This document shows, one piece after another, positions 3,215 to 35,226 of a DNA stretch of 35,226 nucleotides. Origin of the DNA: a virus; the IMG/VR virus record IMGVR_UViG_3300046777_003301, positions 1 to 35,226 of that record. One strand, 5' to 3'. Numbering within the stretch: position 1 is the stretch's first letter; each line of letters starts with the position of its first letter. A model generated the notes under the pieces. It worked only from the letters and a program-made list of their open reading frames with translations. It was not told the origin of the DNA and searched no databases. The position numbers and the translations under genes are program-made.

Positions 3215-3652
3215 TCACCTCTTTGTGTGGGCAGTCTTGGCCAGCTTGCTGTGGAGCTCGCTGCGCTCTGCAAGCAGGCGATCCCTTGCCTGCAGCACTG
3301 CTCGATAAAACTCCACTAGCCTTGTCGGCAGATGCCCTACTGCGCGAGATGATAGCACAGACAGCCCGCCCATGTCCTCTATCATGATGCACCGATACAC
3401 CTGCTCTTGCAGATGCGCATCAAAGTGCTCTCCAGGACAGCCGACGATGTAGTCCGCCTCGTGCTTGCCCTCGTGGTAGTCGATGCGCACAGAGAGATCC
3501 TTGCGCCTCCGGCAAGGTGCATGGTCAGGCTGTAGGTGAGACCGCAGACCGATGGAGCCTACTGCATCACCCACTGCCACTGTGATGCGCTGCCCAAGGC
3601 GCAGCTGTATGGAGATGCGCTGCGTGAGGGTCAGCTCTTGCCCGCTGCCCAT
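3215..3652 (-). CDS. Small protein in tail-assembly chaperone position
   Basis: This 145-residue protein starts at an ATG inside the last codons of the upstream gene (22-base overlap, -1 frame). It has a basic, Cys/His-containing middle part (CRRRKD, YHEGKHEADY, CPGEHFDAH) and a helical, charged C-terminus. The overlapping pair before the tape measure recalls the lambda G/T chaperone arrangement, where the second frame is reached by -1 frameshifting. Here no canonical slippery heptamer was found in the overlap, and the gene has its own ATG, so translational coupling is more likely. Function is inferred from position only. Confidence 0.65.
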   Translation of the reverse strand: MGSGQELTLTQRISIQLRLGQRITVAVGDAVGSIGLRSHLQPDHAPCRRRKDLSVRIDYHEGKHEADYIVGCPGEHFDAHLQEQVYRCIMIEDMGGLSVLSSRAVGHLPTRLVEFYRAVLQARDRLLAERSELHSKLAKTAHTKR

Positions 3653-4161
3653 CGCTCATCCGCTGTAGGCCACGCCTCACCAGACTGCACCCTTGCTACT
3701 GCCAGAGCAGCCTCTGCCACAAAGGTCATCGGTCGAGAGGGGCGCACTCCGAGGCGAGAGTACAAGAGCAGCATGGAGGGTGCTGCCACCTCGTAGGGCA
3801 CACCATCAAAGCTCATGCTTGCGCTCTCAAAGGGCACTGGCCCCTGCTGCGTGACGATCTCGTCATGACCACACACACCCCATCGTATCATCTCAGTCTG
3901 TGCTGTGATGACACGCTGCAGTCCCTCTCCATACTTGACAGAGGCTGTGCGGTCGGAGCCCTCTCGCTGCACATGCTCGATGCAGGTAGCAAGAGCCTGC
4001 TGCGCTGCTAGTAGCTCTATCTGCAGGCTCTGCCACTTGGCCCATGGTATGTCTTTGATCTTGAGCTTGACCGAGCCTGCGCCCGGGTCTTTGGGGTCGA
4101 TGACTACCTCGACCCAAGTCGTCTTGGTGTCGAGACTCAGGTAGTCGATTGTGATTGGCAT
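3631..4161 (-). CDS. Tail assembly chaperone-like protein
   Basis: This 176-residue protein follows the tail tube gene and precedes an overlapping second frame, the usual place for the first tail-assembly chaperone, which binds the tape measure protein during tail building. It is soluble, with an N-terminal beta-like stretch (EVVIDPKDPGAGSVKLKI) and helical segments after it. Its ATG is preceded by GAGGAGAG, and a promoter-like sequence lies directly upstream. Assignment rests on size and gene order; no family motif was recognised. A general tail protein remains possible. Confidence 0.6.
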   Translation of the reverse strand: MPITIDYLSLDTKTTWVEVVIDPKDPGAGSVKLKIKDIPWAKWQSLQIELLAAQQALATCIEHVQREGSDRTASVKYGEGLQRVITAQTEMIRWGVCGHDEIVTQQGPVPFESASMSFDGVPYEVAAPSMLLLYSRLGVRPSRPMTFVAEAALAVARVQSGEAWPTADERWAAGKS

Positions 4162-9881: not shown

Positions 9882-11251
9882 GGTATCACCACCTTGGGAG
9901 CCTCTTGCTTGAGTGGTATCTCGTACATGCTCGCAAGAGCCTCGATGTCTATAGGCACGCCCTTGTCTAGCAAGGCCACCAGAGCAGGCGTGACGCGTGC
10001 GAGTATCTCGCCTCGGTCTTTGGCTGCTGCTAGGCCGCTCTCACTCGCAAAGACCACCTTGGGTGTCGGAGCTGAAGGGCCAAAGGCAAGGCGCACAGAG
10101 TAGGCTAGCAGGCTCTCGAGAGCCTCGCCAACCATGCGCTCATCGCCTGCTGTCAGCGTGTCCTGTACCTGCATCCCAACGGCTGCACTGGCGTACGATG
10201 ACGTGTCGCCCGATGCTGTCGAGACCTGACCCACAATGGCAAACTGAATCTGGCGCTCAGTCATTTTGTCCAAGAGCTCGAAGACACGCTCTCCACCTGC
10301 GACGGCTGACAAGACCTCGACGTCAAAGCCCGGTGGCAAGATCTGCCTGCTGTCACCTGCGAACTCCGAGAGCATCTGCTGGAAAGACGCGACGGCTTCG
10401 GGGCTGAAAGCGCCCGAGATGTCGTTGCTCATCTTGCCGATGATGCCAGGCAGCGACCAGACCTCCGCATACGTCAAGAGGTCTTTCATCGCACCGAGGC
10501 GCAGTGCGTACGACAAGAGCGAGGCTCTGCCTGCACCGCACTGCGACAGTCTGGGAGTCAAGCGTGTGTTGCGCACCTCGACATACAGAGCAGGGTCATA
10601 GTCGGTGAGCGGAGTGCCCGGGTACACTGGGCTGTCAAGGGTCGATAGGTGCGTCGTCTGTGTCTGCACATCGTAGGCGTATCGCCGCTCGTCGAGAGAC
10701 TCGAGGTACATAGGCCGTGCCACAGACTCGCCGGGCTTGGTGCCCCAGTGTACCCACAAGACCTCGAGGCCATACCATGCTGCCATAGCACAGGCCTCGA
10801 CGATGCTGCTGATGTTACCTGTGTAGCGATAGCTGCCATCCACCTGAGGCTCTGCCATGCGGAGCTCATCAAGGATACCTTGGCAGTACTCTGCCACGGC
10901 CTTAGCACGCGCCTCATCTGGGTCGCTCTTGGCTGGCTCGACCTTGACTTGCTTGCGAGACAGTGCCGACAGACGTGTCGTCAAGAGGCCCTGCACCAGA
11001 CCGTCCTTGCCGACGATCTCCTGCATCAAGGCCATCTGATCTTGCAGGATGCCTTGGTCTGCCTGACGCGTGATGTTGATTAGCTTGGTCGGGGTCAGGC
11101 CTGCTGTCGCGTACTCAGGCCACCTGATGATGTCCTTGGGTGCAGGCCGCCCAAGCTGAGAGTAGACTGGCGCTGCGTACACCTTGGGCGCTGGCAGAGA
11201 CAGAGTCTCGACCTTGCTACCGCCACCAAAGAGTCTTGCCCAGATGCTCAT
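9878..11251 (-). CDS. Portal protein, Mu gp29-like (DUF935 type)
   Basis: This 457-residue protein has the order of features of Mu gp29-type portals. An N-terminal ATAGLTPTKLINITRQADQG segment is followed by MQEIVGKDGLVQGLLTTRLSAL. Then come the WYGLEVLWVHWG stretch, VEVRNTRLTP, and a helical C-terminus with AIVGQVSTASGDTSSYASA. Twelve subunits would form the ring at the capsid vertex through which DNA is packaged and the tail attached. It follows the large terminase with an ATGA overlap, the normal order. Its base composition is GC-rich like the downstream head genes, unlike the 5' half of the terminase gene before it. Confidence 0.85.
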   Translation of the reverse strand: MSIWARLFGGGSKVETLSLPAPKVYAAPVYSQLGRPAPKDIIRWPEYATAGLTPTKLINITRQADQGILQDQMALMQEIVGKDGLVQGLLTTRLSALSRKQVKVEPAKSDPDEARAKAVAEYCQGILDELRMAEPQVDGSYRYTGNISSIVEACAMAAWYGLEVLWVHWGTKPGESVARPMYLESLDERRYAYDVQTQTTHLSTLDSPVYPGTPLTDYDPALYVEVRNTRLTPRLSQCGAGRASLLSYALRLGAMKDLLTYAEVWSLPGIIGKMSNDISGAFSPEAVASFQQMLSEFAGDSRQILPPGFDVEVLSAVAGGERVFELLDKMTERQIQFAIVGQVSTASGDTSSYASAAVGMQVQDTLTAGDERMVGEALESLLAYSVRLAFGPSAPTPKVVFASESGLAAAKDRGEILARVTPALVALLDKGVPIDIEALASMYEIPLKQEAPKVVIP

Positions 11252-12513
11252 TTCACGTATCCTGACAGCCTGCCCTTAGACCTAGCTACCGGTGTGCTTA
11301 TATAAGCACTTCTCGGCGAGCTTATAGAAGTGCCTCTATATAGCACCTGTTGCGAGTGTCTTGCAAGCCCTATCCACGCATAAGACATCGCATCGACCTG
11401 ATCGTCGTGCACAGAGTCCGGAAATGACAGCACTTCGCTCTCAAAATCCCTTGGCACTCCGACGCAGTGATAGACCAGCCCCTGCTCGTATCTGGTCTGT
11501 AAAGGCAGGAATCTCGAGACCTTGTCGCCCTCGGGCTTGATGGGCACCACAGGCAGAGTGGTTGTGCGGTGCAGCTCTTGGATGACTGCCGCCTGATACT
11601 GCACCTGCTCGATGGCTACCACATGCGGCCTGTGCTGCTCTGCCATCCTGCGCACAAAGGACAGCACTTGGTCAAAGGGGAGGCGAGCTCGCTGCGCATC
11701 AACCACGTACACCCTGCCATCCACAGTGCGACGCAAGACCACGATGGCAGTGTAGTCGGCGTGGGTCTTGGTAGAGATCGCTAGGTCGACGCCCATGGAG
11801 ACTGTGCCGCCCAAAGCAGAGACATCGACGGGCGCCTGCTTGACCCACTCAGGTCGCAACAGCGCACCTTCTGCGGAGACAAACTCTGCCCCAAACTCTC
11901 TTCGAAAATTGATTGTTGGCATATCCATTCTGGCAGTATCAATCTCGCTTTGGGCAAGGTAGGGGTTTGTCCAAGACGGAAGCTGCCAAGACTTATATTC
12001 AGGCTCAGAGAGGTCTTGTCCTTTGAGATAAAGCTTATGAAACCAATCCTGCTCGCGCCTTGGTGAGCACAAGAAAATAGCTCTGCCCATTCTATCCGAA
12101 AGAGAGGGCCTGAGCACCTTGTGCCAAACTTCATCTCCATCAAGATAGGCTGCCTCGTCAAAAATTATCATATCAAGGCCATCGCCTCGGAGGTTATTGC
12201 CTTTCTCAGCACTCTTGAATAACAGCTCCCCCCTATTTGCCTTGAGTGTTTTTTCAGCCTCCTTTACCTCAACAAGCCCTTGAGCAATAAGAGGCTGCAA
12301 AAGAGTTTTACAGGCCTTCCAGGCAAGACGAGAGACATCGTGAGTGGGGGCTACCCACATTGTTTTTTTTTGAGTTATTAGCTCCTCTATGGCAACTGCT
12401 ACTCCCATCCTTGTCTTGCCCCATCGCCTTCCACAGGCCAAAACTCTATACCTTGTCTGATCATAAAAAATTTCTTTTTGTTTTGGGTGTAGGGAGGGAG
12501 CGATTATTTTCAT
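11248..12513 (-). CDS. terL: Terminase large subunit, compositionally chimeric
   Basis: This 421-residue packaging motor has a Walker A GRRWGKT (28-34), an early WVAPTHDVSR adenine-region motif, a Walker B MIIFDE (115-120) and a coupling-type LCSPRRE. The RNase H-like nuclease domain shows MGVDLAIS (Asp243), VVAIEQVQYQ (Glu302) and HDDQVDAMSYAW (Asp370, Asp371, Asp374). It pumps DNA into the prohead and cuts it. The gene overlaps the kinase gene upstream and the portal downstream by 4 bases each. The first ~205-215 codons are AT-rich, matching the upstream block, and the rest is GC-rich like the portal; the switch lies between the ATPase and nuclease domains. The frame is intact, so the protein is probably functional. 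Confidence 0.93.
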   Translation of the reverse strand: MKIIAPSLHPKQKEIFYDQTRYRVLACGRRWGKTRMGVAVAIEELITQKKTMWVAPTHDVSRLAWKACKTLLQPLIAQGLVEVKEAEKTLKANRGELLFKSAEKGNNLRGDGLDMIIFDEAAYLDGDEVWHKVLRPSLSDRMGRAIFLCSPRREQDWFHKLYLKGQDLSEPEYKSWQLPSWTNPYLAQSEIDTARMDMPTINFRREFGAEFVSAEGALLRPEWVKQAPVDVSALGGTVSMGVDLAISTKTHADYTAIVVLRRTVDGRVYVVDAQRARLPFDQVLSFVRRMAEQHRPHVVAIEQVQYQAAVIQELHRTTTLPVVPIKPEGDKVSRFLPLQTRYEQGLVYHCVGVPRDFESEVLSFPDSVHDDQVDAMSYAWIGLARHSQQVLYRGTSISSPRSAYISTPVARSKGRLSGYVK

Positions 12514-13040
12514 TGAGCCTCATAGACTTCTTTTAGAAAGAGCAATAAATCCTGTTGTGTAACTTTCTGCAGAAAATGAGTTTTTGATATATTTTCAATT
12601 TTTGTTTTTCTTGATTTTATAAATGAATCAGGTTGTTTGGTTCCTCTTTTATCTCTTTGCTTTTGACATATTTCACTATCTACATCTATACAGAACCAAG
12701 AGGCTATAGTGTTTTGTAAAGACTCTATAAAGCATAAGTATTTACAGTTGAAAAGTCTGTCACCTTCAAAAATAATCAAATAATTTTCTAAAAAATTATC
12801 AAGGAAAAACTTTTCTGCATCAGGTTGAACCGCCATAGAAAGTCGGTCTGTTCCGTCAAAAACAGAAGTGTTGTCATATAGTCCTAAAATTATTGTTTTT
12901 CTTAATTCGTTTTTATGGAATCTTAAAAGACCTGATTTATATGTAAACCATTCTCCTTTTTGATTATTAGAAAGAATAGTTTTTATAGAATATGTTTTAC
13001 CGCTTCCCGGCTCTCCTGTAATTCCAATAATTTTATTCAT
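12510..13040 (-). CDS. P-loop kinase, candidate 5-hydroxymethyluracil DNA kinase
   Basis: This 176-residue protein has a Walker A GEPGSGKT (9-16). A conserved-looking FDGTDRLSMAVQP follows (61-73), then a Walker B-like LIIFEGDRLF (88-97) and a basic lid region near KQRDKRGTK. This resembles small P-loop kinases encoded beside DNA-modification and terminase genes in phages. In known thymidine hypermodification pathways such a kinase phosphorylates 5-hydroxymethyluracil in DNA, activating it for attack by an amino acid. The neighbours (transferase, flavoprotein, dioxygenase) fit that role. Its start shares a base with the flavoprotein stop (TAATG), and its end overlaps terL by 4 bases. Activity on DNA rather than a nucleotide is inferred. 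Confidence 0.75.
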   Translation of the reverse strand: MNKIIGITGEPGSGKTYSIKTILSNNQKGEWFTYKSGLLRFHKNELRKTIILGLYDNTSVFDGTDRLSMAVQPDAEKFFLDNFLENYLIIFEGDRLFNCKYLCFIESLQNTIASWFCIDVDSEICQKQRDKRGTKQPDSFIKSRKTKIENISKTHFLQKVTQQDLLLFLKEVYEAQ

Positions 13041-13939
13041 TATATTGCCTGTAAAATAGACTGAATTATTAAAGGTGATACTCTTATACCATTATGCCAA
13101 AATGGCATAACAGTTAGTTGACCTCTTGAGTCTATAAAGCAAAACTCATCCTCTTCTTTTTGTTTATTGCAAGGCCTCCACCCATGAATAAAGTCACCTG
13201 CTGGTTCAATTTCTAACTTATAGTCTGTAAGTCTTTTTATATTATTTTCCCATTTCTCATACTTATCTTGAACAGATAGCTCTTTTGCAATTTTTTGCAT
13301 AATTAAACTAGACCCCGCATACCAATAGGGGGTGCCAGGGCATGGATAAGCATATGCCATTACAAAGCGTCCTTCTCGGCAGTAGAAAGATGGACGTTTT
13401 TTTTCATTACAAAAAAGAGCTTTGACGTGACTAGTTATCTTGACAAGGCGTGTCCATCCCCAAACATAATGGGTAAGGCTTTCATTGTGCCCAAAACAAT
13501 TTATGACTTTGGTGTTTAGACTTATTTCACTGGTTTTTTTTTCAGAAAACATTTGTCTTGTTTTTTCAACCAATATTTGTGCATTGACATGTATTGAGTC
13601 TTGAGAACATTGCCTAAGAAAACCAATGTCAGCCTTTGGTGTAGCTGTAACTCCATGTGGTGCGTTTTTGGTTGAGTACCACCAAGAGCAAATTTCAACG
13701 CACTGCTGCAATATTTCTTTTCTAGTTCCTTTAGAATCACTAAGCCAATTTTTCCAAAGATTATATGCTATTTGAGAATTTCTATTTGAGTCTGGAAAAA
13801 CTGCTCCTGTAGATGCCCTCCATGCTGTTATTTTTTCATCAGAATCCCACCATGTGAAATCAATTCCTTTTTCTTCGAGCTCTAGTGCCAAAAAACTTCC
13901 AATGACTCCCATTCCATTTATATGTATTTTTGAGGACAT
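13040..13939 (-). CDS. DAAO-fold FAD-dependent protein, candidate DNA-modification lyase/oxidase
   Basis: Read from the ATG at 13939 it has 299 residues and begins with a dinucleotide-binding fold: HINGMGVIGSFLALELEEKG with the GxGxxG at residues 9-14, followed by a WWDSD that ends the second strand. The C-terminal GIRVSPLIIQSIL matches the closing FAD-binding strand-helix of D-amino-acid oxidase-like enzymes. Such flavoproteins occur in phage thymidine hypermodification clusters, where flavin-dependent lyases process an amino acid attached to thymine. A reading from 13972 is open but the later ATG suits the fold. It overlaps the transferase gene by 22 bases. The substrate is inferred from context. 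Confidence 0.75.
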   Translation of the reverse strand: MSSKIHINGMGVIGSFLALELEEKGIDFTWWDSDEKITAWRASTGAVFPDSNRNSQIAYNLWKNWLSDSKGTRKEILQQCVEICSWWYSTKNAPHGVTATPKADIGFLRQCSQDSIHVNAQILVEKTRQMFSEKKTSEISLNTKVINCFGHNESLTHYVWGWTRLVKITSHVKALFCNEKKRPSFYCREGRFVMAYAYPCPGTPYWYAGSSLIMQKIAKELSVQDKYEKWENNIKRLTDYKLEIEPAGDFIHGWRPCNKQKEEDEFCFIDSRGQLTVMPFWHNGIRVSPLIIQSILQAI

Positions 13940-14661
13940 TTGCTTTTCAAGCTTTCTGCCAAGGGGCCCCATCCATCAAGTTTGTGAAGAATCTCTTTGC
14001 TGTCTTTTCCTACATAATAACTTCCATTAAGATAAGATTTGTATTTACATAAGATTGTCTCTGCCTCTTGTATATTTATTAACCTGTCATAGCTAGGGGG
14101 AGAAAGTCTATGTCTAAATTTTTTTGCAATAATATTTGCAGTTTCTTCTGCATCTCTGTCAGGAAAAATTAATTTAGCGGCTAAGGCTGGCTCTTTGTAT
14201 ATACCTAGCTTGCAGTCAGAAAAATCTACTTTTATTGACAAGACGCGGTCTATCATATCTGCAACTTTGAATGCTATCCATGGGCCAAAATATGGCCACT
14301 TTTGAACCTTTTTAGATATTTCTCCAAAGGTCATTTTATCAACAAGCAAAGAGTTACATGCAGACTCTGGCGCTGAAAAATTATTTTTGAAAAAAGAAAA
14401 AGATTCATTAGCTGTTTTCCCGCGAAAGTGTCTCCTTTCAGCTCCTCTTGGTGCAGACTTTAAGATACTAGCAAAAGCATCATAAAAGCTTTGCGCTTCT
14501 GCAAGTGCAGAAGCAACACCTACATGGTAGAAGCACCAATAAGCTAGAAGCCATTTTTTCAATAAAGAGTCTTCAAGGTTTGCTCTTTTGAGCATTACAT
14601 AGACAGGGTCAAGATCTTCCGTCTCAATAAGAGATTCTCCAAACTCAATAATAGTTACCAT
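13918..14661 (-). CDS. Amino acid:DNA transferase-like protein (aGPT-PPlase superfamily)
   Basis: This 247-residue helical protein has YWCFYHVGVAS (41-51), GAERRHFRG (73-81), FGPWIAFKVADMIDR (125-139), and ETILCKYKSYLNGSYYVGKD (201-220). This set matches my memory of the alpha-glutamyl/putrescinyl thymine pyrophosphorylase superfamily, which has a DNA-glycosylase-like helical fold. Members joined to hypermodification loci attach free amino acids to phosphorylated hydroxymethyluracil in DNA. The GPWIAFKVADMIDR motif probably corresponds to the DNA-binding helix-hairpin-helix region. It overlaps the flavoprotein gene downstream and the dioxygenase gene upstream. The amino acid used cannot be told from sequence. 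Confidence 0.8.
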   Translation of the reverse strand: MVTIIEFGESLIETEDLDPVYVMLKRANLEDSLLKKWLLAYWCFYHVGVASALAEAQSFYDAFASILKSAPRGAERRHFRGKTANESFSFFKNNFSAPESACNSLLVDKMTFGEISKKVQKWPYFGPWIAFKVADMIDRVLSIKVDFSDCKLGIYKEPALAAKLIFPDRDAEETANIIAKKFRHRLSPPSYDRLINIQEAETILCKYKSYLNGSYYVGKDSKEILHKLDGWGPLAESLKSKCPQKYI

Positions 14662-15536
14662 TTAGGCTCCGAAATAGCTTTAGCTCTTTTTATTTCTTCG
14701 TCAAAAGGAAGACATTTTTTAATATTTTCTCTGGCATATAAAACAGCAGTTATTCTGTTACTATCAAATTTCATGTCGGTCATTGGTGTATTTCCATGTA
14801 CATCATGGACATTAAAAAACAGAACACTACCAGGAGCTGTTGATATAGCTATTTTATATTTTGGAATTATAAGATCAGAGCCTGAAAAATTATTATTACC
14901 AAACCTAGCAATGATTCCAATTCCTTTGTCAAAATCTCCTTTGTCTGTATGATAGGCTGTAGAAAAGTTTTTGTTTACTGTGACTGTAGTAAATACAGTG
15001 TTTGGTATTATGTATTCTATTGGAGCGCTATCACAATGTTCTTTTTGAGCTCTAAAGTTTTCCGGGAAAGCAGCCTGGAAAAGAGCAGATATCTTCTCAA
15101 ATGAACCAAGTAGGCTTTGGTAGTTTTTGAACATTTCAACAGTATTACTTGTCATTCTACAAAGAGGATTCCTTTTTCCACCGCCTCTATCAATATACCC
15201 AAGAATACCGGATTTGGGAGTTTTTTCTGAAACAGTAGTAGATGAAATATATCCACTCTTTGTAGTTCTACGAGAGGATTTGCTACCTGCAGCAGTGCCT
15301 CTATTGGAAGTAGGAACTGCAAATGGTTCTATATTTTTTGATATAAAAAAGTTTTCTTCTTCTGAGAAAAAAAAAGGATAGTATTTAGCTATTAATTTTC
15401 CATCGCAAAATATTTCCGTCTCCTCATAAGCTGATGTCTTTATGTCAAAATCATCTTTTTTTGGAATTCTGCCAAGCCAATCTTTAGGATTTATTTCGAT
15501 ACTTGATACTGTTATTTTATTTATTGTATGTTGCAT
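14655..15536 (-). CDS. TET/JBP-family 2-oxoglutarate/Fe(II) dioxygenase
   Basis: This 293-residue protein carries the TET/JBP core. It has SGILGYIDRGGGKRNPLCR (109-127), then PNTVFTTVTVNKNFSTAYHTDKGD with the iron ligands His196 and Asp198. Next is an SGSDLIIPKY beta segment, and SVLFFNVHDVHGNTP with the distal His247 (or His244). Arg261 is the likely 2-oxoglutarate-binding residue. The family oxidises the methyl group of thymine (JBP) or 5-methylcytosine (TET) in DNA. Here the adjacent kinase, transferase and flavoprotein, and the absence of a 5-methylcytosine methyltransferase, favour thymine as substrate. Its start overlaps the ParB-like gene by 20 bases. A segment of about 25 residues after position 75 is Ser/Thr/Lys-rich and may be a flexible linker. 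Confidence 0.85.
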   Translation of the reverse strand: MQHTINKITVSSIEINPKDWLGRIPKKDDFDIKTSAYEETEIFCDGKLIAKYYPFFFSEEENFFISKNIEPFAVPTSNRGTAAGSKSSRRTTKSGYISSTTVSEKTPKSGILGYIDRGGGKRNPLCRMTSNTVEMFKNYQSLLGSFEKISALFQAAFPENFRAQKEHCDSAPIEYIIPNTVFTTVTVNKNFSTAYHTDKGDFDKGIGIIARFGNNNFSGSDLIIPKYKIAISTAPGSVLFFNVHDVHGNTPMTDMKFDSNRITAVLYARENIKKCLPFDEEIKRAKAISEPKW

Positions 15537-16251
15537 TGCGCAGCCCTTTTAATACAACCTCTGTAATCGTAAGATCTTTTCCATAAATCTCTCTTATTTT
15601 TTCACAAAGTGTTTTGAATTCGTCAAACTCATTCAGTTTTAAGAAAAGACTTATCATCTTTATTGCACCAGGTACATCAGTAGGCGTTGTCTTTTCTTGT
15701 TCATCAGGTGTTGTTTCTTTGTCATAAGAATAGCTTTCCTCAGTGTCTTCTTTGTCATTTTTATATCCTTGCTCGCTAAAGCTAGAATTGGTTTCAGAAA
15801 GCAACTTTGCGCTTCCAATGATAGCTTGCTCTGTAAGTAGCTTCTCCTGCTTTGCAAGGTCAGAAAGCATTGCTTGTACAGATGCTTGGTCTGTAGAGAC
15901 CTCTTTAATAAGATCATAAAGCAATACTTTGTCGGTCTCTGCAAGGCTTCCAAGAGGGTCTAATGTTGCAAGAACAAGCTCCTCTTCTTTCGGAGTTAAT
16001 TCAACATATTTGACTGGGATAGACTTCTCTTTTTTCGAAATTGCCAAAGAAACACGAAGGTGTCCATCAACCAAATTTCCTGTGGTTTTGTTGACAATAA
16101 CATCTTGAACCCAACCAACCTGAGAAAGCATGCCTTCCAAGGCCTCTTTTTGTCTTTTTGGATGTTTCCTCCAGTTTTTGGAGTTAGCCTTTAGTGACAT
16201 CGGGTCAAGCTCGGCAGAGCCAATAATTCTGTTCTTAAATTGTACTGTCAT
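15517..16251 (-). CDS. ParB/Srx-like nuclease-domain protein
   Basis: The likely start is the ATG at 16251, 6 bases after a perfect AGGAGG, giving 244 residues; an earlier ATG at 16284 lacks such a site. The N-terminal domain shows ELDPMSLKANSKNWRKHP, GWVQDVIVNKTTGNLVDGHLR (Asp62, Gly63, His64, Arg66) and IPVKYVEL, the ParB/sulfiredoxin pattern. A long acidic Ser/Thr/Glu linker (about 160-200) leads to a helical C-terminal domain. ParB-like proteins often sit beside small terminase genes and within phage DNA-modification clusters; the role there is not settled. It overlaps both neighbours. Confidence 0.85.
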   Translation of the reverse strand: MTVQFKNRIIGSAELDPMSLKANSKNWRKHPKRQKEALEGMLSQVGWVQDVIVNKTTGNLVDGHLRVSLAISKKEKSIPVKYVELTPKEEELVLATLDPLGSLAETDKVLLYDLIKEVSTDQASVQAMLSDLAKQEKLLTEQAIIGSAKLLSETNSSFSEQGYKNDKEDTEESYSYDKETTPDEQEKTTPTDVPGAIKMISLFLKLNEFDEFKTLCEKIREIYGKDLTITEVVLKGLRNATYNK

Positions 16252-16615
16252 GTTTTGCCTCCTCTTTTTTTGTGTCTTGTTCATCTCCCCAAACCAGACG
16301 AATGGTTTGGTCAGTCTTGTTATTTTGAGAGACTTCCTCTCTCTTTCGCCATCGTTCTGGAAAACGTCGTTCCAAGAGCCAAGCCTTGCTCTGCCAAGAT
16401 AAATCTTTTTTTATTTCCAAAACTAATGTGGCTTCACTTGCTGCCACAGCCTCTTGGTATTGTGTTTTGAGCTCTTCGTCTTTTGACATCCAATCATACC
16501 AAGTAGGTCTTGGCAAGCCTGCCATGGCACATGCCGCTTCTGTTGGGACAGCGCCTCTTATCAGCGCAAGAATTTTTGAGATAATTTCAGGATTTTTTTT
16601 ACTTCTACCCCTCAT
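16235..16615 (-). CDS. terS: Terminase small subunit
   Basis: This 126-residue protein has an N-terminal helix-turn-helix (EIISKILALIRGAVPTEAAC, then AGLPRPTWYDWMSKD) followed by a helical EELKTQYQEAVAASEATLVLEI and a WLLERRFPERW segment. This is the usual pattern of small terminases that bind the packaging site and hand DNA to the large subunit. The ATG follows AAGGAG by 8 bases and overlaps the upstream gene by 11. It is AT-rich, unlike the genes before it, and is separated from terL by five modification-related genes (about 3.7 kb). Confidence 0.8.
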   Translation of the reverse strand: MRGRSKKNPEIISKILALIRGAVPTEAACAMAGLPRPTWYDWMSKDEELKTQYQEAVAASEATLVLEIKKDLSWQSKAWLLERRFPERWRKREEVSQNNKTDQTIRLVWGDEQDTKKEEAKHDSTI

Positions 16616-18352: not shown

Positions 18353-19462
18353 TCACAGCAGCAGCTTAAGCTGCACTGGCTTGTCTTTGGTTGTCTTTGT
18401 AGGCTGCTCTGTCTCAACCTTGTCCTCTATCGTCACAGGGTCGATGGGCATGTCAAGCCTGCGCTTGATGATCTCGATGTGCTCTGGCATGAGCTCGCAG
18501 CCGATGGCAGAGAAGCCCTCCGCACGGGCTGCTACCAGTGTGGTGCCAGAGCCTGCAAAGGGGTCGAGCACCACGCCCTTTGGCGGTGTCACCAGCCTGC
18601 ATAGGTAGCGCATCAAAGAGATCGGCTTGACGGTAGGATGTCGATTGTCACCGCGTTCGGATGGGCTTGTTTTGGCGCAATAGAAGAAGCGAGCGGCGGA
18701 GCCACTGTCGGAGAGGTAATCGCATGGTATCTGTTTGTAAGTTCCATACACCTGCTTTGGCCTGTCGCCACCATATCCGCCAATTCGTTTATGATTTGGT
18801 TTTTTTGCCCCACTCGTCGTCTGCGGAAACAGCTCAACCACCTCTGGCGACCCATCGTGAATGAGATTGGCGGGCCAACGGCCTGAAGGAGCGGGCGTTG
18901 ATAGCCTGTAAGCTGTCCTTTTTGTTTCCTTCCACCCGCTAGGGTTTACATGATCGCATTCGTCACTTTGTCGGTTGTATCGTTTTTCAGGAACGTCATG
19001 CCCTATCCTACAACCATCTACGTTGATTGCGCCCGTGCCATGGGCTAGCACGTTCTCTGCAATGGTTCCGATAAGAGGCTTCCTAGCGCACACAATAGGC
19101 TCAACCGCAGGTTTTAGCGCAGACCCCCACCCTTGCCATTGGCCTTCGAGGTTGTGCGACTTCGGGAAGCCTGAACCATACACCCACATGATGCAGTCTC
19201 TGACCTCGAAGCCTGCATCTTCGATGGCGCAAGTCATGCGATGGTAGGTGCGAGTGCCGCCAAAGGCGAGCAGATGCCCTCCTGGCTTCAGCACCCGAAG
19301 GCACTCTGCCCACACCTGCCCATCATAGGCGATGCCTGACGCATCCCACTTGCGCCCCATGAACCCGAGCTCGTAGGGTGGGTCTGTGACGATGCTGTCC
19401 ACCGAGGCATCTGACAGATCTCGGAGCTGCTCTCTGCAGTCACCCTGGAGTAGCCTGATCAT
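18353..19462 (-). CDS. DNA methyltransferase (beta class, N6-adenine or N4-cytosine)
   Basis: Read from the ATG at 19462 (ATGA overlap with the upstream stop) it has 369 residues. Catalytic motif IV TDPPYELGF lies at about 26-34 near the N-terminus and the AdoMet motif I DPFAGSGTT at 300-308 near the C-terminus; this order marks the beta class. Between them lies a variable target-recognition region. The enzyme methylates the exocyclic amino group of adenine or cytosine at a specific sequence. No restriction endonuclease is nearby, so it is an orphan that probably protects phage DNA. It is not a C5-cytosine methyltransferase, so it would not feed a TET-type oxidase with 5-methylcytosine. Confidence 0.88.
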   Translation of the reverse strand: MIRLLQGDCREQLRDLSDASVDSIVTDPPYELGFMGRKWDASGIAYDGQVWAECLRVLKPGGHLLAFGGTRTYHRMTCAIEDAGFEVRDCIMWVYGSGFPKSHNLEGQWQGWGSALKPAVEPIVCARKPLIGTIAENVLAHGTGAINVDGCRIGHDVPEKRYNRQSDECDHVNPSGWKETKRTAYRLSTPAPSGRWPANLIHDGSPEVVELFPQTTSGAKKPNHKRIGGYGGDRPKQVYGTYKQIPCDYLSDSGSAARFFYCAKTSPSERGDNRHPTVKPISLMRYLCRLVTPPKGVVLDPFAGSGTTLVAARAEGFSAIGCELMPEHIEIIKRRLDMPIDPVTIEDKVETEQPTKTTKDKPVQLKLLL

Positions 19463-19674
19463 GCTCCCCCCATCAGCGACCAAAGCACCAGCCCGATCAA
19501 GGTCAGCAGCCCACAGAGAGGGGCCGCCCATGCAGCAGCCCACAGAGGGGGCCTAGCAGCCTTTTTACGGGGTCTGATTTGTATAGGCAGAGCTTCCCAG
19601 CCCTCGCCATCCATCTTGCGCAGCAGGGGCACTTTCCAGTCTCTCAGCGACCACCTGTGTTTCTCGCGTGTCAC
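19459..19674 (-). CDS. Small membrane protein
   Basis: This 71-residue protein starts at GTG (19674), overlapping the primase stop as GTGA. It has a basic N-terminal half and one hydrophobic C-terminal segment (AAPLCGLLTLIGLVLWSLM), so it is a predicted tail-anchored membrane protein. No family was recognised. It belongs to the leftward operon between primase and methyltransferase genes. Confidence 0.55.
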   Translation of the reverse strand: MTREKHRWSLRDWKVPLLRKMDGEGWEALPIQIRPRKKAARPPLWAAAWAAPLCGLLTLIGLVLWSLMGGA

Positions 19675-24754: not shown

Positions 24755-24801
24755 CAAGTCGCGCCTAAGTCACTGCAAACACAGGCTCTTCTCTGTCGAC
24801 T

Positions 24802-24896
24802 AAACTTTTTTCAAAAAAGTAAAAAAAATAGTTGACTAAAAAAACGAAAGGGCCTATAGATTACTCATGCAGCAACGAGACGGCTGCGAGGGAGAG
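24802..24896 (+). repeat. Duplicated promoter/leader unit, copy 1
   Basis: This AT-rich segment recurs at 26090-26185 with high similarity over roughly 90 bases. Both copies contain an A/T palindrome (here ACTTTTTTCAAAAAAGT), a promoter, and a leader with a conserved GCAGC...GCTGC hairpin (24870-24888 here). Confidence 0.8.
24832..24860 (+). promoter_or_regulatory. Strong early promoter, copy 1
   Basis: TTGACT (24832-24837), 17-base spacer, TATAGA (24855-24860). An A-rich stretch upstream could act as an UP element. It precedes the gene at 24905. The spacer ends in GAAAGGGCC, shared with copy 2. Confidence 0.8.
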
Positions 24897-26081: not shown

Positions 26082-26089
26082 CATTCTAT

Positions 26090-26185
26090 AAATTATTTTC
26101 AAAAAAATAAAAAAAATAGTTGACTAAAAAAAAGAAAGGGCCTATATATTTCTCATGCAGCGACGAAACGGCTGCAGAGAGAGAG
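26090..26185 (+). repeat. Duplicated promoter/leader unit, copy 2
   Basis: Second copy of the unit at 24802-24896. The leader hairpin here pairs TGCAGC with GCTGCA (26156-26176). The ATG in the leader (26155) lies at the expected transcription start, so it is probably not a start codon. Confidence 0.8.
26120..26148 (+). promoter_or_regulatory. Strong early promoter, copy 2
   Basis: TTGACT (26120-26125), 17-base spacer, TATATA (26143-26148), with the same A-rich upstream tract and GAAAGGGCC spacer end as copy 1. It drives the gene at 26191 and probably the small genes that follow. Confidence 0.8.
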
Positions 26186-29498: not shown

Positions 29499-29983
29499 GC
29501 GAGGTGACAGAGTGCAGACACTGCAGCAAGCCCATGCTGCATCGCATGGCCTTTGGGCGGCCTGTGGTCTACTGCGGCACGACGTGCAAGCGCAGGCACG
29601 AGACGCAGAGCAGGCGCAAGCCTCCCTTGCCTCCGAGGCCGTGCGTGGTCTGTGGCGTGGAGTACCTGCCTCCGCAGCCCACAGCCAAGGTCTGCGGCTC
29701 TGAGTGCCGTAAAAAACACGCAGCCATCAGGCTGTCTGCTTGGGTCGCAGAGAGACCAGGCTACTACCAGACCACCAGTGCCAGAGCCTATGACCGCAGG
29801 AGGCAAGAGGCAGGGCACGAGCAGCCCAAGAGGATGCCTCGTGTCGAGTGGCTGACAGGGTCGTGCCGATGGTGTGGAGACGACATCAAGGTACACCCGA
29901 CGAGAGAGCCTAGGGTGTACTGTGACGTGCAGTGTAGGCGTGAGGATCAGGCCTACGCCAAGGAGATCAAGGGGCAGGGCTAG
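29489..29983 (+). CDS. Zinc-motif protein 3 (three CxxC-CxxxC sites)
   Basis: Read from the ATG at 29489 (10-base overlap) it has 164 residues. It carries CRHCSKPM...YCGTTC, CVVCGVEYLPP...VCGSEC and CRWCGDDI...YCDVQC, with basic segments between them. It is the last gene of the early rightward unit; its stop TAG is the first three bases of a 29-base direct repeat, and the convergent terminator follows about 100 bases later. Confidence 0.65.
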   Translation: MSIGEVTECRHCSKPMLHRMAFGRPVVYCGTTCKRRHETQSRRKPPLPPRPCVVCGVEYLPPQPTAKVCGSECRKKHAAIRLSAWVAERPGYYQTTSARAYDRRRQEAGHEQPKRMPRVEWLTGSCRWCGDDIKVHPTREPRVYCDVQCRREDQAYAKEIKGQG

Positions 29984-30009
29984 TACCTCGCCAGCCTGCG
30001 CATGTCCCA
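29981..30009. repeat. 29-base direct repeat, copy 1
   Basis: This segment is identical to 30136-30164 (begins TAGTACCTCGCCAGCC). Copy 1 starts at the stop codon of zinc-motif protein 3 and otherwise lies outside any gene. Confidence 0.9.
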
Positions 30010-30134: not shown

Positions 30135-30977
30135 TTAGTACCTCGCCAGCCTGCGCATGTCCCAGTCTCTTGGGATAGCAAGCCCACCCTGTGCGTACCC
30201 CTCGCCCCCATCTGACAGCCCTAGGCTATGCTGTGCCCACACCCCAAGCTGCTGCCAGATAGCAGACCCCGGATCAGACACCCTGTCCTTGCTGCTTTGT
30301 CGATGCGCGAGGATGTGGGTGATCTGCCCTCCATGGTGCTTGACCTCTTCACACAGCCAGATGATGGCATCTCTGCACGACTGCACTGCAGCCTGCGACA
30401 GCGTGTCAGGCTGTGCCTGTCCACCTGCCCACCATGTGTGTCTCTGCCCTTCTACCCCCTCGTACGACCCGTCGATCTCGATGCCCACCGATCGCGAGTT
30501 GAAGCCATTGGCGTGGGGTAGATTGTAGGTCAGGTCGTTTAGGTGCAGCATGCGCCCGTGCTTGGTGATGCCTACGTGGATGGGCACAGTGTGCCATCGC
30601 TGCGGACGCTCTCCAAGAGTGCATGCAGTCTGGTGCAGCACGATGGCTGTGATCTGTGTCCACGGGCGCACCTTGACCAAGTGTGCCTTGGGCAGCTCGT
30701 GGTCTCTGCAATCGATGTAGGATACAGGCGGCTCTGGTCGCTCATTGGCCTTGTTGAAGAGAGCCAAGATTGCATTGATCTCTGTATCCACCAACATGCT
30801 GTAGTCTGTGTCCAGAGCCTCAGGGCGCAGCCTGCGTAAGAGCTCATGGGCTGCGGAGAGAGTCTCATCACCCATGGCCCCATCGGCACCCCATCTTGGC
30901 AGCTGCACGCCAAGACCTAGCAGCGCCTGCTGCAGCTCTATCACGTGCGGCCCTCTGTCCCCCTTGCGCATGATCAT
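30135..30977 (-). CDS. Endolysin: N-acetylmuramoyl-L-alanine amidase with peptidoglycan-binding domain
   Basis: This 280-residue protein has an N-terminal peptidoglycan-binding domain (about 1-72; KGDRGPHVIELQQALLGLGV, GAMGDETL). A type 2 amidase domain follows (about 95-245), with ITAIVLHQTA (His115), HVGITKHGRMLHL, SVGIEIDGSY, HILAHRQSSKDRVSDPG (His225, Asp235). His115, His225 and Asp235 are the likely zinc ligands; the His-Asp spacing of 10 matches this family. It cleaves the amide bond between muramic acid and the peptide stem at lysis. No signal peptide is seen, so release needs a holin. It overlaps the gene before it as ATGA. Confidence 0.9.
   Translation of the reverse strand: MIMRKGDRGPHVIELQQALLGLGVQLPRWGADGAMGDETLSAAHELLRRLRPEALDTDYSMLVDTEINAILALFNKANERPEPPVSYIDCRDHELPKAHLVKVRPWTQITAIVLHQTACTLGERPQRWHTVPIHVGITKHGRMLHLNDLTYNLPHANGFNSRSVGIEIDGSYEGVEGQRHTWWAGGQAQPDTLSQAAVQSCRDAIIWLCEEVKHHGGQITHILAHRQSSKDRVSDPGSAIWQQLGVWAQHSLGLSDGGEGYAQGGLAIPRDWDMRRLARY
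30136..30164. repeat. 29-base direct repeat, copy 2
   Basis: This copy lies in the last codons of the endolysin gene (encoding WDMRRLARY). Copy 1 at 29981-30009 thus looks like a displaced copy of the gene end. Confidence 0.9.
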
Positions 30978-33211: not shown

Positions 33212-34916
33212 GACCTATGCTCCATGCCCCTGCCTGCCCAGTGGCGACAGAGACCTGTGTATTGTCTAGAGATACCTCAAAGCGGCCCATCGTACCAAGC
33301 TGCACCTCCCACGCACCATAGAGACCGAGAGGGTCTGGAGCGATGACAAGGTCTCCTGTGATCATGCCATTGCCCGTCAGAGCCCCTGACATGGTGAGTG
33401 CCAGGTAGAGATCGCCTGTGATGCTACCTGCCCCTGTGACTGCGCCAGCCAGCGGTAGAGAGATCTCCAGACCTGCATCGATAAAGCCCTCACCCTCTGC
33501 CACGCCAGCGAGGTTGATGACAGTCTCGATCTGCGCAGGGTCAAGCGTGCCTGCACCTGTGACGTCACCCGCCAGAGGTAGCCCCACGCCGAGGAGTGCG
33601 GCTGCGTCTCCGCTGCCGTCAAGCGAGCCTGTCATCTGGTGCACAAGCACTAGGTCTGCAGCTGCGTGCCCGTCTCCGACCACCGAGCCAAACATCTGCT
33701 GGTCTATGGCAAGCAGAGCTGCCGCATCGCCTGTGCCAGTGACTGTGTCTGTCACCATGTGGTGCACAAGCACTAGGTCAGCGGTCGCGTCTCCGTCGCC
33801 TGTCAAGGCGCCAGAGAGCTGGTTGACTATCAGCACTGTGGCAGGCTGCAGATCGCCTTGGCCGACCACATCGCCGAGCAAGTAGATCTCATTGATGAGC
33901 GTACCAAAGAGGCCGCCTGCGCCGTTGATGGTGCCAGCCATGAGCTTGCTGACGATGAGTGTGCCATCGGTCTCTGATGCGCCAGTGACTGCACCAGACA
34001 GGTACTTGGCCACAGTGATCGTGCCGTCGAGCTCACCTACGCCATCGACCGAGCCCTCTATCCACTGCCCTACTTGGATGGTGCCGACGAGCAGGCTGTC
34101 GCCAGTAGCCGAGCCTGCCATATCATGCACCATGGTCAGGTGACCAGCTGCATTGCCAGAGCCGTCGAGGTCGCCGTCAAAGCCCACAAACTGCTCGAGG
34201 TTGGCACTGACTACACCCGACCCATCAAGCACGCCATCAAGGGCAAATGCCTGCGTCAGAGTGCCTGTCACAGTGCCGGTGCCAGTGACCGCTCCGAGGT
34301 AGCTGTATGGGGTGTCGAGCTGCGCAGGGTCGAGAGTGCCGACGCCTGTCACTGCGCCAGACATGCCGAGCAGCTGCGTGAGGCTTGCGCTCGCATTGCC
34401 TGCGCCGTCGATCTGCCCGACGAGAGCCTGCATCTGCGTCAGGCTAGCATCGACCTCGCTATCGCCCTGCACGCTGCCAAAAATAAAGGTCGCGACAAAG
34501 AGATCTGCGGTCGCTGTACCCGCTCCGTCGATGGGGTCGGCCGACAAAAACTTGGTGACCGTCATGCCACCCGTCAGCTCGCCGTCTCCGTCAAGGGCGC
34601 CAGCCAAGACCACGATGCCGGTGTTGACATCGAGGTTGGCTGTCGTGTCACCCTCGCCAGTGAGTGCGCCGGCCAGTGGGAGCGGCACCTCGAGATATGA
34701 TGGTGTCAGATCGCCAGTGCCTGTGACGCTTCCGGCAAGTGCTTGTATTTGGCTAAGGTTAGCTGTGGCTTGCCCTTGCCCCGTGACCACACCTGAGAGC
34801 GCTGCCACTGCTGCGCCAAAGAGCCCCTGCTCGGTGATGGTCTGAGACGTCTGTGAGGCTACTGCGCTCGCAGACGTAAAGATCCCAGCGATAGGATGCG
34901 AGAGGAGCCCTGCCAT
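33204..34916 (-). CDS. Tail fibre-like protein of ~24 twenty-residue repeats
   Basis: About residues 30-525 of this 570-residue protein consist of some 24 near-exact 20-residue repeats. The consensus is [LM]-x-G-x-[VL]-[TD]-G-x-G, then about six variable residues with a conserved Leu, for example LVGQIDGAGNASASLTQLLG. Such regular Gly- and Leu-spaced repeats suggest a beta-solenoid or a similar rod. The C-terminal 45 residues (GAWEVQLGTMGRFEVSL) are a different beta domain. Position between tail and lysis genes fits a fibre or receptor-binding shaft. No lysine is present in most repeats, and charge is mainly Asp/Glu. Confidence 0.7.
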   Translation of the reverse strand: MAGLLSHPIAGIFTSASAVASQTSQTITEQGLFGAAVAALSGVVTGQGQATANLSQIQALAGSVTGTGDLTPSYLEVPLPLAGALTGEGDTTANLDVNTGIVVLAGALDGDGELTGGMTVTKFLSADPIDGAGTATADLFVATFIFGSVQGDSEVDASLTQMQALVGQIDGAGNASASLTQLLGMSGAVTGVGTLDPAQLDTPYSYLGAVTGTGTVTGTLTQAFALDGVLDGSGVVSANLEQFVGFDGDLDGSGNAAGHLTMVHDMAGSATGDSLLVGTIQVGQWIEGSVDGVGELDGTITVAKYLSGAVTGASETDGTLIVSKLMAGTINGAGGLFGTLINEIYLLGDVVGQGDLQPATVLIVNQLSGALTGDGDATADLVLVHHMVTDTVTGTGDAAALLAIDQQMFGSVVGDGHAAADLVLVHQMTGSLDGSGDAAALLGVGLPLAGDVTGAGTLDPAQIETVINLAGVAEGEGFIDAGLEISLPLAGAVTGAGSITGDLYLALTMSGALTGNGMITGDLVIAPDPLGLYGAWEVQLGTMGRFEVSLDNTQVSVATGQAGAWSIGHG

Positions 34917-35226
34917 CAGAGCGCCAAGACCTTAGCCTGCAGACTGACTATAGGCATAGTTGTCGCCGGCCCGATGAGCTGGCTCGGAGTGGCAGCAGGC
35001 ACTGCCTGCACACCGAGAGTCAGGCATGCTGCCCCATCAAACTGCGGCAGGCCACTAAAAAGTGAGTACGGAGCTGTGGTCTGGGCATTCGATGGCTGCG
35101 ACGTACGCCACGCGCCGAGGTACTTGCAAAGCACGATCGACAAGCCAGGGGTGAAGCTGGCACCAGCCGAAGCAGACAGCTGCACCGAGTTCACAGCCCG
35201 CACTCCACTGTCCCCCGCGAGCATCG
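34916..35226 (-). CDS. Partial tail protein at the right edge
   Basis: The frame is open from the right edge to its stop at 34916. An ATG lies at 35224, only two bases from the edge, so the true start may be outside the window. The 102 visible residues are Ala/Ser/Leu/Gly-rich with beta character (VQLSASAGASFTPGLSIVL). The stop overlaps the fibre gene ATG (TGATG). If the window closes on itself this is the C-terminus of the tape measure protein. Confidence 0.6.
   Translation of the reverse strand, partial: MLAGDSGVRAVNSVQLSASAGASFTPGLSIVLCKYLGAWRTSQPSNAQTTAPYSLFSGLPQFDGAACLTLGVQAVPAATPSQLIGPATTMPIVSLQAKVLAL

Follow-up and report, generated by a model that had tools for sequence, protein, structure and literature searches.

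A candidate thymine hypermodification cassette with a TET/JBP-type first step in an uncultured phage genome

Oxidation of thymine to hydroxymethyluracil is the reaction of the JBP enzymes, and routes initiated by TET/JBP-type proteins were reportedly predicted by Iyer et al. in 2013. In phages M6, ViI and phiW-14, 5-hydroxymethyldeoxyuridine (5-hmdU) enters the DNA, is phosphorylated by a 5-hmdU DNA kinase and then undergoes substitution (PMC6449724). A bioinformatic survey is reported to tie phage JBP-like genes to enzymes acting on 5-hydroxymethyluracil (PMC4111573), a link also made in the preliminary description of the locus discussed here, and the same gene set in Rhodococcus phage Tonitrus already bears a published annotation as a system for thymidine hypermodification (PMC11955845). 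The locus lies in the uncultured phage record IMGVR_UViG_3300046777_003301 of IMG/VR, which is classed as linear and whose 35,226 bases are referred to as the window. Its block of adjacent genes for a TET/JBP-type dioxygenase, an amino acid:DNA transferase (ADDT), a DAAO-fold flavoprotein and a P-loop kinase is probably a cassette for thymine hypermodification that works on phage DNA once it has been replicated. The cassette belongs to a kind already predicted and is not new in kind; the evidence added here is comparative, and concerns the mutual exclusivity of TET and the thymidylate synthase-family hydroxymethylase (ThyA), the identity of the flavoprotein and the sharing of downstream enzymes.

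In the proposed scheme, the TET/JBP protein would oxidise some thymines in DNA at their methyl group, giving 5-hydroxymethyluracil, the kinase would phosphorylate the hydroxymethyl group, the ADDT would replace the phosphate with an N-linked amino acid, most likely glycine, and the flavoprotein would oxidise the attached glycine, released as glyoxylate, to leave 5-aminomethyl-dU. A ParB-like protein may help bring the enzymes to DNA, and the modified product would shield the phage genome from nucleases. This order of steps is the most economical because of the 5-hmdU route of M6, ViI and phiW-14 and the known oxidation of thymine by TET/JBP enzymes. It is judged likely, if marginally less so than the assignment of the cassette itself, that such a system would carry out a full amino acid-type hypermodification on finished DNA, with TET feeding the kinase, glycine transferase and flavin lyase, and would need neither a nucleotide hydroxymethylase nor a dedicated polymerase. 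The protein families, the operon and the mutual exclusion with the ThyA route are established; the thymine substrate, the step order, the use of glycine, the reaction of the flavoprotein and the protection of the genome form the inferred part of the scheme.

The genes follow one another on the minus strand in the order TerS-ParB-TET-ADDT-flavoprotein-kinase-TerL, with successive overlaps of 50, 20, 7, 22, 1 and 4 bases. The four adjacent overlapping genes originally picked out at 12510-15536 are all present as minus-strand frames, and the ParB-like gene, absent from that account, is part of the same unit. As the gene order is met again in unrelated phages, the arrangement is not a matter of chance. 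The features are as follows.

14655-15536, minus strand: TET/JBP-type Fe(II)/2-oxoglutarate dioxygenase, 293 amino acids (PF12851, E 4.4e-26)
13918-14661, minus strand: ADDT / aGPT-Pplase2, amino acid:DNA transferase (PF18724, E 1.4e-16)
13040-13939 (longest open reading frame starts at 13972), minus strand: DAAO-fold flavoprotein (AlphaFold2 model and Foldseek)
12510-13040, minus strand: P-loop kinase, Ploopntkinase3-like group (similarity to proteins over the PF18751 cut-off; model)
15517-16284, minus strand: ParB-like protein, upstream operon member (PHROG ParB-like matches, E 1e-13)
16235-16615, minus strand: TerS, terminase small subunit, flanking (PF20901 over cut-off; phrog_4102, E 1.8e-19)
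11248-12513, minus strand: TerL, terminase large subunit, flanking (PF17289, E 3.6e-16; PF03237, E 4.9e-9)
12200-16600, ends approximate, no strand: low-GC island containing the cassette (200-base GC profile)

The mutual exclusion of TET and the ThyA route is seen in the company that ADDT genes keep. In scans of viral contigs, ADDT was found at 80 loci and the kinase at 50; among 90 dereplicated ADDTs, 47 lie by a ThyA-type hydroxymethylase, 23 by a TET and none by both (Fisher p 6e-10, a value that overstates independence, as the rows are related). The same separation holds across whole records: the ThyA model PF00303, which finds the enzyme of phage Ab18 as a positive control, has no match in any of the 42 TET-linked records, the complete cultured phages MO526 and Terij included, and TET is found in none of the 48 ADDT records of ThyA-type or undetermined class. 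Nor is there a PF00303 gene in the window, a linear and possibly incomplete record, so the observation that no thymidylate synthase-like enzyme accompanies the cassette holds for the whole of that record.

The dioxygenase matches PF12851 (Tet_JBP) at 91.5 bits, against a curated cut-off of 34.9. Across seven aligned phage TETs, H196, D198, H247, G248, T250 and R261 do not vary, and the residues first listed for it (His196, Asp198, Arg261 and an HGNTP motif beginning at H247) are in place. No close relatives were found in viral contigs by the TET alone, and the seven-member alignment was too divergent to serve for a scan. The role proposed for the enzyme is conversion of thymine in DNA into 5-hydroxymethyluracil. 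An unlikely alternative, though the likeliest of those considered, is that it produces 5-hydroxymethylcytosine from 5-methylcytosine (5mC), with the kinase and ADDT building a cytosine hypermodification. TET family members, studied phage ones included, act on 5mC; to our knowledge this is the substrate of the phage TETs tested so far, as is said to have been found experimentally by Burke et al. in 2021, and Methylophilales phage Melnitz couples its TET with an HhaI-type C5-methylase. However, the window contains no C5-cytosine methylase (PF00145), and the same model, which detects that of the 5mC-type phage Melnitz at E 2e-56, gives a single short partial match in the 42 TET-linked records. 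The methylase encoded at 18353-19543 is of another type, N6/N4, while the ADDT and flavoprotein families are common to 5-hmdU loci and the kinases of the nearest TET cassettes (L013 and L015) exceed the cut-off for the Pfam 5-hmdU DNA kinase (PF18748). Mouse Tet is reported to oxidise thymine to hydroxymethyluracil (Pfaffeneder 2014, as cited in PMC11550810).

Less probable still is that 5-hydroxymethyl-dU continues to be made at the nucleotide level, by an enzyme encoded outside the record or belonging to a different family, with the TET performing some other, later step. The linear record may indeed be incomplete, and four ADDT loci (L101, L029, L057 and L093) are without both TET and ThyA, but the lack of ThyA extends to complete cultured genomes, and a TET acting later would permit co-occurrence with ThyA, yet the two are never together. 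DNA polymerase A is present in 30 of 32 ThyA-type records versus 4 of 21 TET-type records, and is absent from the window. Such a contrast would be expected if TET phages left the copying of unmodified thymine to the host and altered it afterwards, needing no modified deoxynucleoside triphosphate, although it could stem from lineage and covers DNA polymerase A only. These contexts, namely the TET/ThyA exclusion, the lack of any meaningful C5-methylase, the enzymes shared with 5-hmdU routes and the distribution of polymerase A, favour oxidation of thymine in DNA; the first three support the initial suggestion that the dioxygenase may make hydroxymethyluracil from thymine in situ.

The downstream enzymes are consistent with this. 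The ADDT scores 61.4 bits against PF18724 (cut-off 26.2) and, by phmmer against the PDB, matches the solved phage enzyme 8z2m, titled 'Glycinyltransferase', at E 1.5e-45 and 25qc at E 8.3e-44; the resemblance to amino acid:DNA transferases described at the outset is thereby confirmed, and the protein is probably a glycinyltransferase. In a tree, it falls on the ThyA-type side of a long branch, with most TET-type ADDTs across it, and a quick tree nests its TET-type group within the ThyA-type clade. As a single clade for all TET rows is not rejected by test (p 0.196), closeness is claimed and not the direction of a TET/ThyA swap; an origin of TET-type ADDTs from within the ThyA clade was considered as that direction and set aside on the same result.

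The flavoprotein is encoded by an open reading frame at 13040-13972, for which a start at 13939 is more likely. Its AlphaFold2 model (pLDDT 88.6, pTM 0.89) retrieves human DAAO by Foldseek at E 3e-14, which bears out the fold first ascribed to it, and also 8z79, titled as the N-alpha-glycinylthymidine FAD-dependent lyase gp47/NGTO, at E 1.2e-8. Structural alignment gives Z scores of about 20-21 with proteins that include glycine oxidase and MnmC, and G9, G11 and G14 of the N-terminal dinucleotide-binding motif are invariant. By sequence, the protein scores 11.2 bits against Pfam DAO, below the cut-off of 27.9, and has no significant PDB match, either alone or with its own subfamily. The same family also adjoins ADDT in five ThyA-type loci. 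The flavoprotein is proposed to trim the amino acid attached to the base. The FAD domain of MnmC converts cmnm5U to nm5U in tRNA, and since N-alpha-glycinylthymine is the cmnm5U base, the predicted end product is 5-aminomethyl-dU. The likeness to MnmC thus lies in the fold (Z about 20) and in a predicted reaction on a 5-carboxymethylaminomethyl-uracil base, whereas the substrate of MnmC is tRNA and its identity to the window flavoprotein, whose function is itself a prediction, is 12-13%.

The kinase has the Walker A motif GEPGSGKT and a confident model (pLDDT 94.2), which resembles O-phosphoseryl-tRNA kinase and nucleotide kinases weakly (TM about 0.5). It is 27% identical to Microbacterium phage proteins that exceed the Ploopntkinase3 (PF18751) cut-off (E 1e-12 and 3e-13). 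It is proposed to be a 5-hydroxymethyl-dU DNA kinase. The identification of a P-loop kinase in the preliminary description stands; none of the models of characterised 5-hmdU kinases (PF18748, PF18747 and PF18723) matches at E<=1.

This last result is one of several that, along with the 5mC activity of studied phage TETs, weigh against a thymine hypermodification cassette. The kinase does not match PF18751 directly, its link to Ploopntkinase3 being indirect only. The flavoprotein has the fold of the glycinylthymidine lyase in common but little sequence, with no significant sequence match between them. Two correlated residue patterns in the TETs, at +3 after the Asp of HxD and +8 after the 2-oxoglutarate-binding Arg, do not separate thymine from 5mC contexts. 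Finally, a segment of the genome may be missing from the linear record.

Similar cassettes recur in other phages. Across the 23 dereplicated TET and ADDT loci, including that of the window, the genes lie on one strand in 23/23 and a kinase is present in 23/23, a figure that the kinase scan itself partly ensures; a ParB-like gene is found in 15/23 and a flavoprotein in 9/23. For example, the cultured Microbacterium phage MO526 has the order TET-ADDT-DAAO-kinase-TerL, and the cultured Mycobacterium phage Reprobate (L278) has ParB-TET-ADDT-FAD-kinase-TerL. In Reprobate, the gene at 3327-3866 annotated 'terminase small subunit' encodes a Ploopntkinase3 kinase (E 2.8e-73), and that at 807-1670 annotated 'queuine tRNA-ribosyltransferase' encodes a TET/JBP-type protein in the cassette position, with a weak Pfam match; PHROG 800 and 6059 bear the same labels. 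Gordonia phage Wooper and Rhodococcus phage Tonitrus each have ParB-TET-ADDT-kinase plus a 'hypothetical' protein that profile comparison (E 1.5e-59) assigns to the same flavoprotein type as that of the window, which completes the window's five genes.

Other combinations also occur. Microbacterium phage Terij (L008, 1-3804) carries ParB-TET-kinase-TerL without an ADDT, which suggests a simpler system that may end at phosphorylated hydroxymethyl-thymine. The ADDT loci L101 (3975-8516), L029 (250-6651), L057 (1113-5120) and L093 (2703-8606) contain the same kinase and radical SAM proteins, to which L101 adds a pyridoxal phosphate enzyme (Pfam PALP), with look-alike open reading frames seen by eye in L029 and L057. 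Searches of these four complete records detected no TET and no ThyA; the pathway may start there in a third way, or its front-end gene may have been lost through fragmentation.

The cassette has a GC content of 0.34, against 0.58 elsewhere in the record by a 200-base profile. Because in other phages the GC content of the cassette is like that of its surroundings, the window copy looks recently acquired. That it is an inactive recent transfer or an assembly artefact, as the sharp low-GC island and the lack of a close relative of the phage for comparison might suggest, is very improbable, the frames all being intact, the catalytic residues kept and the overlaps unbroken into ParB, TerS and TerL. 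No close relative of the TerL was found in phages, viral contigs or genomes, the best being ~25-39% identical over partial or full length, and an empty-site comparison was consequently without result.

The remainder of the record encodes phage head, portal, protease, terminase, tail, prim-pol/VapE helicase and lysis functions, as well as the N6/N4-type DNA methylase (PF01555, E 8e-34), a separate modification gene outside the low-GC island. When the ends of the record are joined (1-2080 and 34916-35226), open minus-strand frames run on in phase, a weak hint of a circularly permuted genome. Two AT-rich 87-base copies, 91% identical (24801-24887 and 26089-26175), precede two plus-strand genes and carry a promoter-like TTGACT...TATAGAT/TATATAT plus a start codon, and an exact 29-base direct repeat (29981-30009 and 30136-30164) lies close to the end of the endolysin gene.

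If the proposed route is correct, TET and ThyA would be interchangeable front ends of one downstream pathway, which would explain hypermodified thymine in phages relying on the host polymerase. In combination with a kinase and a transferase for amino acids, a thymine-hydroxylating TET would also offer a way to put amines on natural DNA after synthesis. As the cassette is present in laboratory phages of Gordonia, Microbacterium and Mycobacterium smegmatis, the idea is directly testable.

Among known systems, the cassettes of actinobacterial phages (Tonitrus, Wooper, Microbacterium phages MO526 and Kozie, and Reprobate) share the window's gene families ahead of the terminase, although sequence identity is low and, in Wooper and Tonitrus, the kinase precedes the flavoprotein, which is annotated only as hypothetical. 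The 5mC-TET systems of phages such as Melnitz have in common with the window a TET/JBP dioxygenase and its catalytic residues, but in Melnitz a C5-methylase adjoins the TET, unlike in the window. The M6/PaMx11-type thymidine hypermodification of Pseudomonas phages likewise places a DAAO-fold flavoprotein beside an ADDT, the window ADDT being homologous to the solved glycinyltransferase. By contrast, those phages have a ThyA-type hydroxymethylase, a kinase helical domain and usually a DNA polymerase A of their own, whereas in the window the first step would fall to TET instead.

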